NCBI RefSeq assembly: GCF_017104565.1
Contig: NZ_JAAGPD010000005.1
Span: 124,001-188,000, forward strand
Direction of reading: 5' to 3'
DNA from: Paraburkholderia sp. Tr-20389
Lineage (GTDB): Bacteria; Pseudomonadota; Gammaproteobacteria; Burkholderiales; Burkholderiaceae
Length of the DNA: 64,000 nucleotides
A program made the translations under genes and the position numbers. The notes beneath the pieces are model-generated. The model did no database searches, was not told where the DNA came from, and worked only from the letters and a program-made list of their open reading frames with translations. How positions within the stretch are numbered: position 1 is the stretch's first letter; every line of letters starts with the position of its first letter. Positions 16,755 through 23,058 of this stretch are shown piece by piece.

Positions 16755-17285
16755 ATGGCACGCAACATCGAAATCAAAGCCCGCGCGCAGCAGTTCGAGC
16801 AGCTTCGCGAGCGCGCCGCCGCCCTTGCGCCTGACGCTCCGTTGATCTTCCGCCAGCAGGACTTTTTCTACGACGTACCGCGCGGGCGTTTGAAGCTGCG
16901 CCAGTTCGACGACGGCACGCCCGCCGAGCTGATCTTCTATCAGCGCGACGACCGCGACGGTCCCAAAGCCTCCTACTACACGCGCAGCCCGGTGACGAAC
17001 CCCGAAGCGATGCACTCGCTGCTCGCCACCGCACTCACGACGCGCGGCATCGTCACGAAGGAACGCCACGTGTATATCGTCGGGCGCACGCGGATTCACC
17101 TGGATCGTGTCGACGGTCTTGGCGATTTCGTCGAACTCGAAGTCGTGCTCGCGCAGGATGACGACGAAGAAGGCGGCGAAGCCGAAGCGCATGCCGTGTT
17201 TGCGAAACTCGGCGTGCCCGAGTCGGACCTCGTCGCCGTCGCGTATGTGGATATGCTGAATGAGGAACCGCTGAAGGCCGCCTGA
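16755..17285 (+). CDS. CYTH domain protein, class IV adenylate cyclase-like
   Basis: A 176-residue cytoplasmic protein starting MARNIEIKAR, close to the ExExK signature of CYTH proteins, although the first Glu of the motif is replaced (NIEIK). The later strands carry the expected charged residues, for example RGRLKLRQF, ELIFYQR and HLDRVDGLGDFVELEVV. CYTH proteins act on nucleotides or triphosphate compounds (CyaB adenylate cyclase, thiamine triphosphatase). Good ribosome-binding site: GACAGGAGCTTCAC before ATG. Its substrate is not known. Confidence 0.8.
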   Translation: MARNIEIKARAQQFEQLRERAAALAPDAPLIFRQQDFFYDVPRGRLKLRQFDDGTPAELIFYQRDDRDGPKASYYTRSPVTNPEAMHSLLATALTTRGIVTKERHVYIVGRTRIHLDRVDGLGDFVELEVVLAQDDDEEGGEAEAHAVFAKLGVPESDLVAVAYVDMLNEEPLKAA

Positions 17286-17304: not shown

Positions 17305-17796
17305 TCACTCAGTGGGCGCGCCCGGCGCCAGATGACCGAGCGGCAACGGCCCGTTGCGCTTGAACGTCGTCAGCACGATGTTCGAGCGCACGCTGTCGAC
17401 GCCCGGCACGCGCATCAATTTCTTCATCACGAACGACGACAGCGCGTTCAGATCCGGCGCGACGATGCGCAGCAGATAGTCGGCATCGCCCACCACCGCG
17501 TGACATTCCAGCACCTCCGGCAGCACGTCGATCTGCTGCTGAAACTGCTCGATGATCGAATCTCCGTGATGCTTCAGTTTCAGGCTTGTGAACGCCGTCA
17601 CGCCGAGCCCGAGCTTTTCTGGCCGCAGCACGACGCGATAGCCGTCGACCACCCCGATCGCCTCCAGCCGCTGCAGCCGGCGCCCGATCTGGGAGGGCGA
17701 CAGCGGCACCTGCTCGCCGAGCTGCTGATGCGTCGCGCGTCCGAAGCGCTGCAGGACGTCGAGCAGCGCGAGGTCGAAGTGATCGAGTTCCAACAT
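17305..17796 (-). CDS. Lrp/AsnC family transcriptional regulator
   Basis: A 163-residue regulator: an N-terminal winged helix-turn-helix (MLELDHFDLALLDVLQRFGR onward, with SPSQIGRRLQRLE as recognition helix) and a C-terminal RAM ligand-binding domain (VLECHAVVGDADYLLRIV). Start at 17796 chosen for the AGGAACACC ribosome-binding site and family match. It converges with the CYTH gene, 19 bases apart. No adjacent amino acid gene points to its target. Confidence 0.88.
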   Translation of the reverse strand: MLELDHFDLALLDVLQRFGRATHQQLGEQVPLSPSQIGRRLQRLEAIGVVDGYRVVLRPEKLGLGVTAFTSLKLKHHGDSIIEQFQQQIDVLPEVLECHAVVGDADYLLRIVAPDLNALSSFVMKKLMRVPGVDSVRSNIVLTTFKRNGPLPLGHLAPGAPTE

Positions 17797-18179
17797 GGTG
17801 TTCCTACACGAATACAGGGCAAACGTGCATCTTATTGCATGGGTTCGCCCTCCGTGCAAGGGCGTGCCTCCGGCCGCATACGCGCAATGAGACCTACGCA
17901 GGCAGGGACATCCAAGGGCCGGCTCGGCGCACTACATCCTTTACAAGCGGCATGTCGGCGTCTATAACCAAACAACCTATCAATACATTCAAGACGCATG
18001 TTTTCAGCTCGGTCGACAACCCAACTCGACCATGCTCCATTCGTCTCACGCCCAGTCCTCGCCGCAAGAACCATGATGCTTCAGCGAAGCCGGAACTTCG
18101 CGGTGAGCATGTCGGCCACTGCCTGATCGATTTGGTCGAAGCGGTCGTCATCAATTGCATAAAACATTGAGGGCGCGTC
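17797..18179. other. Intergenic region ahead of the TIR-PCD gene
   Basis: 383 bases with visibly lower G+C than the flanks. No complete gene was supported. On the minus strand 18081-18167 reads a 28-codon frame (MFYAIDDDRFDQIDQAV and on, ending AKFRLR) with GC-rich third positions, which may be the remaining end of a gene cut off by the inserted TIR gene. Confidence 0.4.
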
Positions 18180-19037
18180 ATGGGTTCCAAAGACTTTTTA
18201 GCGTTCATCAGCTATCGGCGCGTCGATAGCTGGGCGGCGTCTCGTTGGCTCGCGGACAGCATCGGCCGGACATTCGGCCCACAAAGCGTATTCATTGACT
18301 CCGAGGCGATCCGTGTGTCCAACAACTGGAAGGATCGAATCAAAGAGGCTCTGGATTCGGCAACCGTCGTGATCCCAGTGATTGGGCCGAGATGGCTTTC
18401 CACAGCAGACGAAAACAGCAAACGGCGCATTGATAAAAAAGACGACTGGGTGCGAAACGAAATACGCCACGCCATCGAATCGAAGACCCGCGTCGCTCCC
18501 GTGCTTCTTTCGAAGACACCTATGCCGACGCAAGGCGCACTTCCTGATGCAATCCGCAAACTCGCGGATTTTCAGGGATTCGAGTTGCGTGACGATCGCT
18601 GGGAAAGCGATCTGCAAGCGCTATTAACGCAAATGGAAAGTTTTGGTTTTGTGCGTCTGTCGCAAGATGCCGTCCGGTACCCGACGCCCGCGCTAAAAAT
18701 CCGCGGACTCGATCCTATCGAATTACAAGCCGGACTTAACCGGCTACCCGGCTGGCAGTGCCTCACTTCGGATCTTCCCAACGCACCGGGTCGTCAGCGC
18801 ATCGAATTGCACCGCAACTTCGTATTCGCTTCTTTTCTGGACGCGGTCGAATTCATGTCGAAGGCTGCTTTGGAAATCGACCGACGCGACCATCATCCTC
18901 GATGGCAGAACCTTTGGCGCACGGTTTCCGTCTGGCTAACGACCTGGGACATCGGGCATACACCGTCCACCCTGGACCTCGAGCTCGCTGCCTACCTCGA
19001 TGAGCTACGCACGCAGTTTCGCGCAGTTGCGAACTGA
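18180..19037 (+). CDS. TIR domain fused to pterin-4a-carbinolamine dehydratase domain
   Basis: A 285-residue soluble protein with two domains. Residues 5 to about 150 are a TIR domain of the bacterial TIR_2 type: FLAFISYRRVDS, VFIDSEAI, VIPVIGPRWL (residues 64-73) and DDWVRNEIRHAI, where E94 is the likely catalytic Glu of NAD-cleaving TIRs. Residues about 178-276 are a pterin-4a-carbinolamine dehydratase (PCD) domain with HHP at 238-240, W246, W256 and D266, which keeps the family's active-site spacing; a Trp replaces the usual third His. The next gene is a stand-alone PCD. G+C is lower than the flanks, suggesting transfer. I know of no characterised protein with this pairing. Confidence 0.85.
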   Translation: MGSKDFLAFISYRRVDSWAASRWLADSIGRTFGPQSVFIDSEAIRVSNNWKDRIKEALDSATVVIPVIGPRWLSTADENSKRRIDKKDDWVRNEIRHAIESKTRVAPVLLSKTPMPTQGALPDAIRKLADFQGFELRDDRWESDLQALLTQMESFGFVRLSQDAVRYPTPALKIRGLDPIELQAGLNRLPGWQCLTSDLPNAPGRQRIELHRNFVFASFLDAVEFMSKAALEIDRRDHHPRWQNLWRTVSVWLTTWDIGHTPSTLDLELAAYLDELRTQFRAVAN

Positions 19038-19165
19038 TGCGATCAACATCGAAGACTCGCGGCTCGTACGGCATGCGCGTATTCGTGGAAGAATGAACGT
19101 GCGGTCTGACGCCTCCGTCGGCGCCACTGACACGCCCCTTCCTGCCAACACCACAGGTAAGCACG

Positions 19166-19471
19166 ATGACGCGTAAATTGACTGTTGACGAACGCTCGGC
19201 GCTCTTGAGCGAATTGAACGGTTGGCGAGCATCCACGGATCGCGAAGCGATTCAGTGCGAATATAAGTTCCGCGACTTCAACGAAGCGTTCGGCTTTATG
19301 ACGCGGGTTGCAATCAAGGCGGAGGAAATCGGCCACCATCCAGATTGGTTCAATGTCTACAACGAGGTGAAGATCACGCTACGAACGCATGACCTCGATG
19401 GTGTCACTGAACTCGACGCGCAACTTGCGCGGTTCATAGACGAAGTGGCAAGAACCATGCAACCGAGCTAG
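19166..19471 (+). CDS. phhB: Pterin-4a-carbinolamine dehydratase (4a-hydroxytetrahydrobiopterin dehydratase)
   Basis: A 101-residue complete PCD. It has the full active-site set: E53 or E54, HHP at 57-59, Y65, H75 in LRTHD, and D84. PCDs dehydrate 4a-hydroxytetrahydropterin to recycle the cofactor of aromatic amino acid hydroxylases, and can dimerise or act as transcription partners. No phhA (phenylalanine hydroxylase) is near. Instead it lies 128 bases downstream of the TIR-PCD fusion and aligns along its whole length with that protein's second domain. Ribosome-binding site: CAGGTAAGCACG before ATG. Confidence 0.9.
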   Translation: MTRKLTVDERSALLSELNGWRASTDREAIQCEYKFRDFNEAFGFMTRVAIKAEEIGHHPDWFNVYNEVKITLRTHDLDGVTELDAQLARFIDEVARTMQPS

Positions 19472-19544
19472 TCAGTCGAATCCACGAAAAATGCTGCTGC
19501 GCCGAATTTGAAAGCGTATTGCAGGTAATCAGGCCACCAAACCT

Positions 19545-19775
19545 TCACTTCTTTAGGCCATTTTTAAGGGACACGTAAGAATCCCATGCAGTACGTGCGT
19601 TCGCGTCCAAACCTTCCTGCGACACGGTGGTCTGTCGCTGTACAATCATCAGCGCATACGGCTTGGAGAGCGCGCTTGCCTCCTTGCACAGAACGAGTTC
19701 GTCGCCGGCTGAAGGCGAGCGGGTACGCCAGAAATTGATCGCGGCTTCCAGTTCGTAGATCGTAATATCGGACAT
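19545..19775 (-). CDS. DUF3717-like protein
   Basis: A 76-residue acidic-to-neutral protein starting MSDITIYELEAAINFWR, a pattern I recognise from the DUF3717 family found mainly in Burkholderiales. No membrane segment or signal is visible. Function unknown. It diverges from the response regulator gene with 117 bases between. Confidence 0.75.
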   Translation of the reverse strand: MSDITIYELEAAINFWRTRSPSAGDELVLCKEASALSKPYALMIVQRQTTVSQEGLDANARTAWDSYVSLKNGLKK

Positions 19776-19892: not shown

Positions 19893-20579
19893 ATGCGACT
19901 CCTTCTGATCGAAGATGACCGCCCCATCGCACGCGGCATCCAAAGCAGTCTCGAACAAGCCGGCTTCACGGTCGACATGGTTCACGACGGCATCTTCGCC
20001 GAACAGGCCCTCACGCAAAACCGCCACGAACTCGTGATCCTCGATCTGGGCCTGCCCGGCATCGACGGCATGACGCTGCTCTCGCGTTTTCGCCAGAGCA
20101 ACCGTCATACGCCCGTGATCGTGCTGACCGCGCGCGACGAACTGAACGACCGCGTGCAGGGCCTCAATTCCGGCGCCGATGACTACATGCTGAAGCCGTT
20201 CGAACCCGCCGAACTCGAAGCACGCATTCGCGCGGTGATGCGCCGCAGCGGACCGCATGGCGACATGCCGCGTCCGGAAGTGTCGCTGGGCGGCGTACGT
20301 CTGTCGGGTGTCGATCGCCGCATTTTCAACGACGACAAGCCGCTCGAACTGTCTCCGCGCGAATTCGCGGTGCTCGAAATGCTGCTGCTGCGTCATGGCC
20401 GCGTGGTCAGCAAGGCGCAACTGCAGGATCACCTGACGCACTTCGGCGGCGATCTCGGCGACACCGCGATCGAAGTCTATGTGCACCGTGTGCGCAAGAA
20501 GCTCGAAAACTGCCGCGTCGAAATCGTCACGGTGCGCGGCTTCGGCTATCTGCTCCAGGAAATCCGCCAGGCGTCATAA
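19893..20579 (+). CDS. OmpR/PhoB family response regulator (TctD-like)
   Basis: A 228-residue two-component regulator. Receiver domain residues 1-118 with phosphoacceptor D51 in LVILDLGLPGIDG and K103-type Lys in the MLKPFEP stretch; winged-helix DNA-binding domain residues about 130-225. It is followed by a sensor kinase gene 174 bases downstream, most likely its partner. TctD/TctE systems control tricarboxylate uptake, but no tricarboxylate transport gene is adjacent here. Confidence 0.9.
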   Translation: MRLLLIEDDRPIARGIQSSLEQAGFTVDMVHDGIFAEQALTQNRHELVILDLGLPGIDGMTLLSRFRQSNRHTPVIVLTARDELNDRVQGLNSGADDYMLKPFEPAELEARIRAVMRRSGPHGDMPRPEVSLGGVRLSGVDRRIFNDDKPLELSPREFAVLEMLLLRHGRVVSKAQLQDHLTHFGGDLGDTAIEVYVHRVRKKLENCRVEIVTVRGFGYLLQEIRQAS

Positions 20580-22311: not shown

Positions 22312-22794
22312 TCACTTCTTCTTCTTCGATTTCTTCTCGTCTTTCTTGTCCGGCCGCGCAAGCATCGTGCCGCGGCACTTGCGCGCGCCACAGCGGCATT
22401 CGTATTCCTTCTTCAATTTCTTCGTCTGACGCGCGTCGATCACGAGCCCGTAGTCGTAGAACAGCTCCTCGCCGGCTTCGATATCGCGCAGCGCGTCGAT
22501 ATAGACGTGCCCGTCGATCTCTTCCGCTTCGCAGTTCGGCGCGCACGAGTGGTTGATCCAGCGCGCGCTGTTGCCCTTCACCTTGCCGTCGATCACGTCA
22601 CCGCTATCGAGCGCGAAGTAGAACGTGTGATTCGGTTCGTCCGGGTTATGGGGATGCCGTCGCAGCGCTTCTTTCCACGAGATCCGTTCGCCCTTGTATT
22701 CGATCAGCCGGTCGCCGGCAGCGAGCGGTTCGAGTGCAAACACGCCTTTGCCGTGCACACCCGATTGACGCACAGCGATCCTGCGTGAACTCAT
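22312..22794 (-). CDS. SET domain protein-lysine methyltransferase-like protein
   Basis: A 160-residue protein with a complete SET domain: GKGVFALEPLAAGDRLIEYKG at the start, ARWINHSCAPNCEA (the NHSC S-adenosylmethionine block) and EELFYDYG near the end, followed by a post-SET CRCGARKCRG zinc motif and a Lys-rich tail (KKDEKKSKKKK). Bacterial SET proteins of this size exist in Burkholderia and are thought to modify DNA-binding proteins. Start at 22794 chosen for AAGGATTGATTCA before ATG. Confidence 0.85.
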   Translation of the reverse strand: MSSRRIAVRQSGVHGKGVFALEPLAAGDRLIEYKGERISWKEALRRHPHNPDEPNHTFYFALDSGDVIDGKVKGNSARWINHSCAPNCEAEEIDGHVYIDALRDIEAGEELFYDYGLVIDARQTKKLKKEYECRCGARKCRGTMLARPDKKDEKKSKKKK

Positions 22795-22901
22795 TGAATC
22801 AATCCTTGTAGAACGGTGGATGAGCAAACTCTTGTTCGCCGATGCTTCCGCGTTTCGCGCCATCTCCAGCGATGCATGGCTTTTCTGACGCGGATAGCAA
22901 A

Positions 22902-22924
22902 CGCGGCGCCTTGCTGGCGCCGCG
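22902..22924 (-). terminator. Terminator-like hairpin after the OYE gene
   Basis: CGCGGCGCC and its exact complement around a 5-base loop, followed on the minus strand by TTTGCT. It lies 135 bases after the stop at 23059. Confidence 0.5.
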
Positions 22925-23058
22925 TCGACATGTGACGCAAGCAACGTCACAACCGAAATCGTACACGGATGATGTGGATTCGTTCAACCGTCAGACGCGC
23001 AGATCCGCATCGCATTGCGTGCAATGCGTGATCCGCATCGACAATCGAACGCCGCGTG

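Follow-up and report, generated by a model that had tools for sequence, protein, structure and literature searches.

The window, a 64,000-nucleotide stretch of the Paraburkholderia sp. Tr-20389 genome (9.0 Mb, 129 contigs), was found to encode a protein in which a TIR domain is fused to a pterin-4a-carbinolamine dehydratase (PCD) domain. Two more fusions, from other phyla, have both domains in the same order, which argues that the fusion is no chance event.

Domains of the fusion and its altered PCD site

The fusion gene (18180..19037, + strand; 285 aa) is a single unbroken ATG frame of 285 codons. Pfam places TIR_2 at residues 9-149 (18204..18626, +; PF13676, E 1e-14), with 55.5 bits against a cut-off of 28, and Pterin_4a at residues 177-276 (18708..19007, +; PF01329, E 1.3e-18), with 67.3 bits against a cut-off of 26. 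These matches bear out an earlier note, made from the sequence alone, which had read the gene as a TIR-PCD fusion, and the motifs that it listed (FISYRR, VIGPRWL, DDWVRNE with E94, and HHP at 238-240) were all found at the positions it gave. A search for a sigma-70-type promoter gave no match.

The candidate catalytic glutamate, E94 (codon 18459..18461, +), lies within DDWVRNE and is invariant in all 13 aligned TIRs, two of which are fusions, and in 3/3 fusions. The nearest solved sequences to the fusion TIR are SARM1 TIR domains, a weak match (E 0.0018), and in this sequence alignment E94 falls on the Glu of the DWVHKEI segment in the SARM1 structures, which we take to be the SARM1 catalytic residue. 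The alignment and the invariance are both consistent with the role that had been suggested for E94, which stays a candidate catalytic residue on sequence grounds. The wider segment RRID-x-x-DDWVR-x-E is invariant in the alignment of the three fusions, which also have linker prolines in common. The TIR part was predicted poorly (block means of pLDDT 40-69), and the TIR tree, in which the Rhodococcus jostii RHA1 fusion is represented by the C-terminal part of its TIR alone, was poorly resolved and did not group the three fusions.

The domain make-up of the NAD+-processing TIR enzymes SARM1, AbTir and ThsB of Thoeris provides a basis for comparison. The fusion likewise has a TIR_2 domain, an N-terminal FISYRR and the aligned Glu; it differs in its C-terminal PCD, and its own NAD+ activity is putative. 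It resembles Thoeris little, given a weak and partial match to the PADLOC ThsB model (E 0.0047, 14.1 bits, 64 of 396 positions), a score of 23.8 bits against a cut-off of 220 for NCBIfam ThcB4, and hence no ThsB or ThcB match over most of the model. Nor does it have a ThsA-type gene nearby, since Pfam found no such effector among the adjoining small PCD and nine flanking genes.

Varied C-terminal parts appear to be usual among related TIRs, because the seven relatives scanned comprised one with CHASE2, one with BTRD1 and five with no named other C-terminal domain. The TIR-CHASE2 protein (L026:1489-3183) and the TIR-BTRD1 repeat protein (L025:1492-3009) come from other genera of the same bacterial family; their TIRs are 36-37% identical to the fusion TIR, and their C-termini consist of CHASE2 or repeats, unlike the PCD of the fusion. 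The plasmid search also gave a TIR match on a plasmid of Paraburkholderia sp. PGU19, from the same genus.

PCDs carry out catalysis with three histidines. Two of these belong to the HHP motif, H238-H239-P240 in the fusion (18891..18899, +), which is present in 82 of 82 distinct PCDs. At W256-D-I-G-H260 (18945..18959, +), however, the third catalytic His is replaced by Trp and a new His stands four residues further on. Among the 82 distinct PCDs, W256 and H260 are each exclusive to the three fusions, while position 256 is His in 79. The motif of an active dehydratase (HHP plus the third His) is therefore incomplete in the fused PCD, which also scores below the NCBIfam dehydratase equivalog cut-off (69.2 against 108 bits). 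A PCD motif is known that permits Trp at the third position, and some PCDs with this residue may retain dehydratase activity. Compared with the PhhB/DCoH enzymes (PF01329), then, the fused PCD has Trp for the third His, the added H260, a TIR partner, scores under the dehydratase cut-offs and, measured against the adjoining small PCD, about 9 more residues ahead of the second strand.

In contrast to the TIR part, the PCD part was predicted with high confidence, and its best structural matches are PCD/DCoH proteins, followed by a PCD-like Rubisco factor (fold match 4low; 20% identity in the structural alignment with that factor). Raf2 and the alpha-carboxysome PCD-like Rubisco assembly factor differ from the fusion in having no TIR and another partner. 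As described in PMC5859369, PCD folds occur as dimers and tetramers, and in Raf2 and its bacterial homologue, which are inactive dimers, they bind proteins without catalysis. Such cases lend weight to a somewhat unlikely alternative, in which the fused PCD is purely a scaffold or protein-binding surface with no small ligand, and a phage or host protein triggers the TIR, by analogy with the capsid that triggers staphylococcal Thoeris. Capsid sensing by TIR proteins is indeed reported (PMC11312562). Against a pure scaffold, the pocket looks kept but changed, because the HHP is retained in 3/3 fusions and the position of the new His is constant.

Recurrence and distribution of the fusion

Two further fusions were found, one on plasmid pRHL1 of Rhodococcus jostii RHA1 and one in a Saprospiraceae metagenome-assembled genome (MAG), so that the fusion does recur in other genomes, as the earlier note would require of a real system, and is present in three phyla in all (Pseudomonadota, Actinomycetota, and Bacteroidota). 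The three are mutually 34-41% identical. The RHA1 fusion (34% identical to that of the window) was the sole match spanning both domains in a tblastn search of 72,556 plasmid records. It is frame-shifted into two overlapping frames, each piece matching its own domain, which points to a disrupted gene or to an error in the record. The Saprospiraceae fusion is 38% identical to that of the window, and its N-terminus is truncated at a contig end. In the PCD tree, the three fused PCDs form one clade (support 100/96) on long branches. If a TIR-PCD family is defined by both domains in this order and a single origin of the fused PCD, these three fusions belong to it. The nearest neighbours of this clade in the tree are PCDs joined to an RNase H-type domain (PF01329 plus PF13456/PF00075), an architecture that Pfam gave for 4/4 proteins scanned, from Saccharibacteria and other MAGs (L032:1757-2590, L033:7977-8681, L034:174-893, and L035:7977-8690).

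Further fusions were rare in every set searched. None was present among the matches listed for the 144 other genomes of the same genus, where a fusion would rank top. There were also none in 397 other genomes of the family (E <= 1e-18) or 397 other genomes of the phylum (1e-15), with the best 6 or fewer candidates per genome considered in each, in 139 other genomes of the order (1e-25), or in 394 others of the phylum of the Saprospiraceae genome (1e-20, again the best 6 or fewer candidates per genome). These genome samples overlap, and Actinomycetota genomes lay outside the survey although the RHA1 fusion belongs to that phylum. The pattern-based scan of genome contigs, which detects only close relatives, matched 44 stretches, with five relatives and one fusion among them. 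Only one of the 72,556 plasmid records covers at least 80% of the fusion, and the RHA1 and Saprospiraceae queries gave just that record at this coverage. No relative of the fusion was seen in 50,697 phages or in four pattern scans of viral contigs. On the sequence comparisons, a small, rare family scattered over three phyla looks like one that has spread horizontally.

This rarity, the frame shift in the RHA1 copy and the lack of a fusion among the matches listed for the 144 other genomes of the genus could suggest a chance, decaying fusion with no function in its own genome. We consider this highly improbable, since fusions that are only 34-41% identical have kept invariant residues in both domains, and the frame in the window is intact, which together require long-lasting selection.

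The surroundings of the other two fusions were also inspected. A HipB/HipA-type pair lies ~1.2 kb downstream of the Saprospiraceae fusion (L031:1985-3639), and its HipA-like protein matches the PADLOC candidate-defence model PDC-M03A (E 3.3e-10), which is a hint only of a defence context. The RHA1 fusion is found near cell-wall hydrolase-type genes and a phage-type integrase, with no PADLOC match in four neighbouring proteins scanned. A 167-aa ORF ~0.6 kb past the RHA1 fusion (L030:7477-7980) had neither a Pfam match at 0.1 nor a PADLOC match.

A foreign block at the phhA-phhB site

To place the locus, we compared it with 20 relatives: the 14 with the best matches to the CYTH gene, the next in rank (G101), one with a partial match (G011), and four with no PCD match. 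The CYTH-domain gene (16755..17285, +; PF01928) served as the anchor in the native left flank and had a match in all 145 genomes of the genus, its own among them. It is followed by an AsnC/Lrp-type regulator (17305..17859, -; PF01037), whose true start lies near 17799 by homology. In the native right flank, a response regulator (19893..20579, +; PF00072, PF00486) is 98.7-100% identical and in the same place in 20/20 relatives. The order CYTH, AsnC, phhA, phhB, a small gene, and response regulator was observed in 15 of the 20; the rest are G070, with no phhA and a broken phhB, and four with neither gene. In the window, the fusion and the small PCD occupy the positions that phhA and phhB hold in relatives. 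G070 (L081 1172-1580) is the closest relative at the locus, and because it has lost phhA and keeps only a broken phhB, phhAB seems dispensable in the clade. A search for Biopterin_H (phhA) gave nothing in the genome of the window itself; of 18 other genomes of the genus searched, 12 have a match.

The block at the operon's place spans ~1.7 kb (17798..19510). On the left, 16 of 20 relatives lose blastn homology at 17797, the AsnC start codon, and the other four at 17805-17842. The right edge is approximate (19500-19520): compared with four relatives, 19461-19520 is 45-60% identical, 19521-19580 is 93-98% identical, the next 60 bases 75-88%, and the sequence beyond them 90-100%. Positions 17798-18190 matched none of the 144 other genomes in the genus at the DNA level (E <= 1e-6), and 17798-19154 gave no blastn match in plasmids. 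Flanking repeats were short only, with no clear pair at both edges of the block. The lower GC content that had been noticed relative to the flanks was confirmed: the fusion and the small PCD have GC of 0.56 and 0.53 and GC3 of 0.62 and 0.63, against GC3 of 0.715-0.866 in nine surrounding genes. Synteny, GC3, and dS together mark the block with these two genes as foreign. On either side, nine genes examined with Pfam are metabolic or regulatory, and neither they nor the searches of phages and viral contigs link the fusion to phage defence. Further to the right, 22312-22950 (-) encodes a bacterial SET-domain protein (PF00856, E 1.2e-23).

The small stand-alone PCD (19166..19471, +; 101 aa) is of PhhB type. 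It was described from the sequence as a full copy of the same dehydratase, and the first part of this description holds (Pterin_4a E 3.4e-33; 152.7 bits against a cut-off of 146 for the NCBIfam 4a-hydroxytetrahydrobiopterin dehydratase). At about 31-33% identity to the fused PCD, however, it is no recent copy of it. Since GC3 of phhB in ten relatives spans 0.63-0.80 (mean 0.73), GC3 alone is insufficient to prove the small PCD foreign. The dS values do so: they run from 1.41 to saturated between the small PCD and the phhB of these ten relatives, as compared with 0.11-0.73 among nine of the ten, the tenth (G101) being 0.71-1.48 from the rest. The low dN to relatives (0.19-0.31, with dN/dS about 0.1-0.2 where dS was computable) indicates purifying selection. 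The best identity for the small PCD among the matches listed from 199 other genomes of the family was 65%, and a pairwise alignment with G101 gave 66%. The PCD tree places it weakly among PhhB proteins of the same bacterial family, and on these comparisons it probably came from some distant relative within that family. We had considered the small PCD as a leftover native phhB, as suggested by synteny and by blastn homology that resumes near 19155 in most relatives; this was rejected on the dS values and because identity to the four relatives first reaches native levels in 19521-19580. The genome has a third PCD (L002, contig C19), which adjoins a GHMP-kinase-type gene (PF00288, PF08544), perhaps part of a tetrahydromethanopterin-type pathway, although this is a guess.

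These features of the locus bear on two further explanations. The first takes the two genes as a functional pair, in which the small PCD acts on a signal read by the fused one (making, removing, or blocking it), or the two assemble into mixed oligomers. Both genes lie in one foreign block with similarly low GC3, and the small PCD is under purifying selection, though foreign and in a genome with no phhA match. It nevertheless sits at the phhB place of relatives, shares little identity with the fused PCD, and has no counterpart beside the Rhodococcus or Saprospiraceae fusions in the stretches examined (one side only for the latter). We regard the pair as unlikely, and the partner or inhibitor role proposed in the earlier note is so far unsupported; in all likelihood the small PCD is an ordinary enzyme of PhhB type that the block brought along, rather than a partner the fusion needs.

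The second explanation is that the fused PCD has kept a metabolic role as an enzyme, in pterin recycling or another route at the old phhAB site, with a passive TIR. The locus itself, the PCD fold, and the intact HHP would fit. This is very unlikely, however, as phhA, the hydroxylase to be served, was not found in the genome, the third His is lost, the dehydratase cut-off is missed, E94 is kept in every fusion, and the stretches examined next to the other two fusions have no phhB-like gene.

A possible ligand-gated TIR effector

Our leading explanation, held tentatively, is that the fusion is a single-gene TIR effector that processes NAD+, whose PCD fold oligomerises the TIR and may bind a pterin-like ligand. 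The TIR would cleave or cyclise NAD+ once TIRs pack together; self-association is required by enzymatic TIRs according to PMC10022894. The PCD fold, which forms dimers or tetramers in known cases, would hold the TIRs in an inactive or primed state. Its changed pocket would no longer work as an ordinary dehydratase and could bind a trigger (a protein, or a molecule resembling a pterin or folate) that would turn the TIR on. The likely outcome would be a loss of NAD+ or a nucleotide signal that halts growth under attack or stress. A ligand sensor is included in this leading explanation because the HHP and the new His argue for a retained, changed pocket; that the ligand is pterin-like is a guess. 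The suggestion that the PCD part is an oligomeriser or a pterin sensor is, by analogy with the dimers and tetramers of other PCD folds (PMC5859369), a fair one. A bolder version, which we consider distinctly unlikely, would make the fusion a new class of single-gene bacterial immune effector: the remodelled, pterin-binding PCD would detect a metabolite of the pterin or folate type, such as one whose level changes through a nucleotide or folate pathway encoded by a phage, and would in response turn on the TIR to destroy NAD+ or make a signal.

A literature search in which most subscription journals lay outside coverage found no paper on TIR-PCD fusions, and none that links pterin cofactor metabolism to TIR signalling was found in the literature searched. 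The main texts of two domain surveys (PMC7159879, PMC8195603) contain no mention of pterin, dehydratase, DCoH, or PCD. The triggers of bacterial TIR enzymes were mostly unknown as of 2024, according to PMC11312562. The fusion is a compact case in this respect, with a TIR placed on a small, well-studied, oligomerising, ligand-binding fold whose pocket has been specifically altered, and it offers one protein, one candidate catalytic residue, and one candidate class of ligand. If the ligand is a pterin, the fusion would connect cofactor metabolism with TIR signalling.
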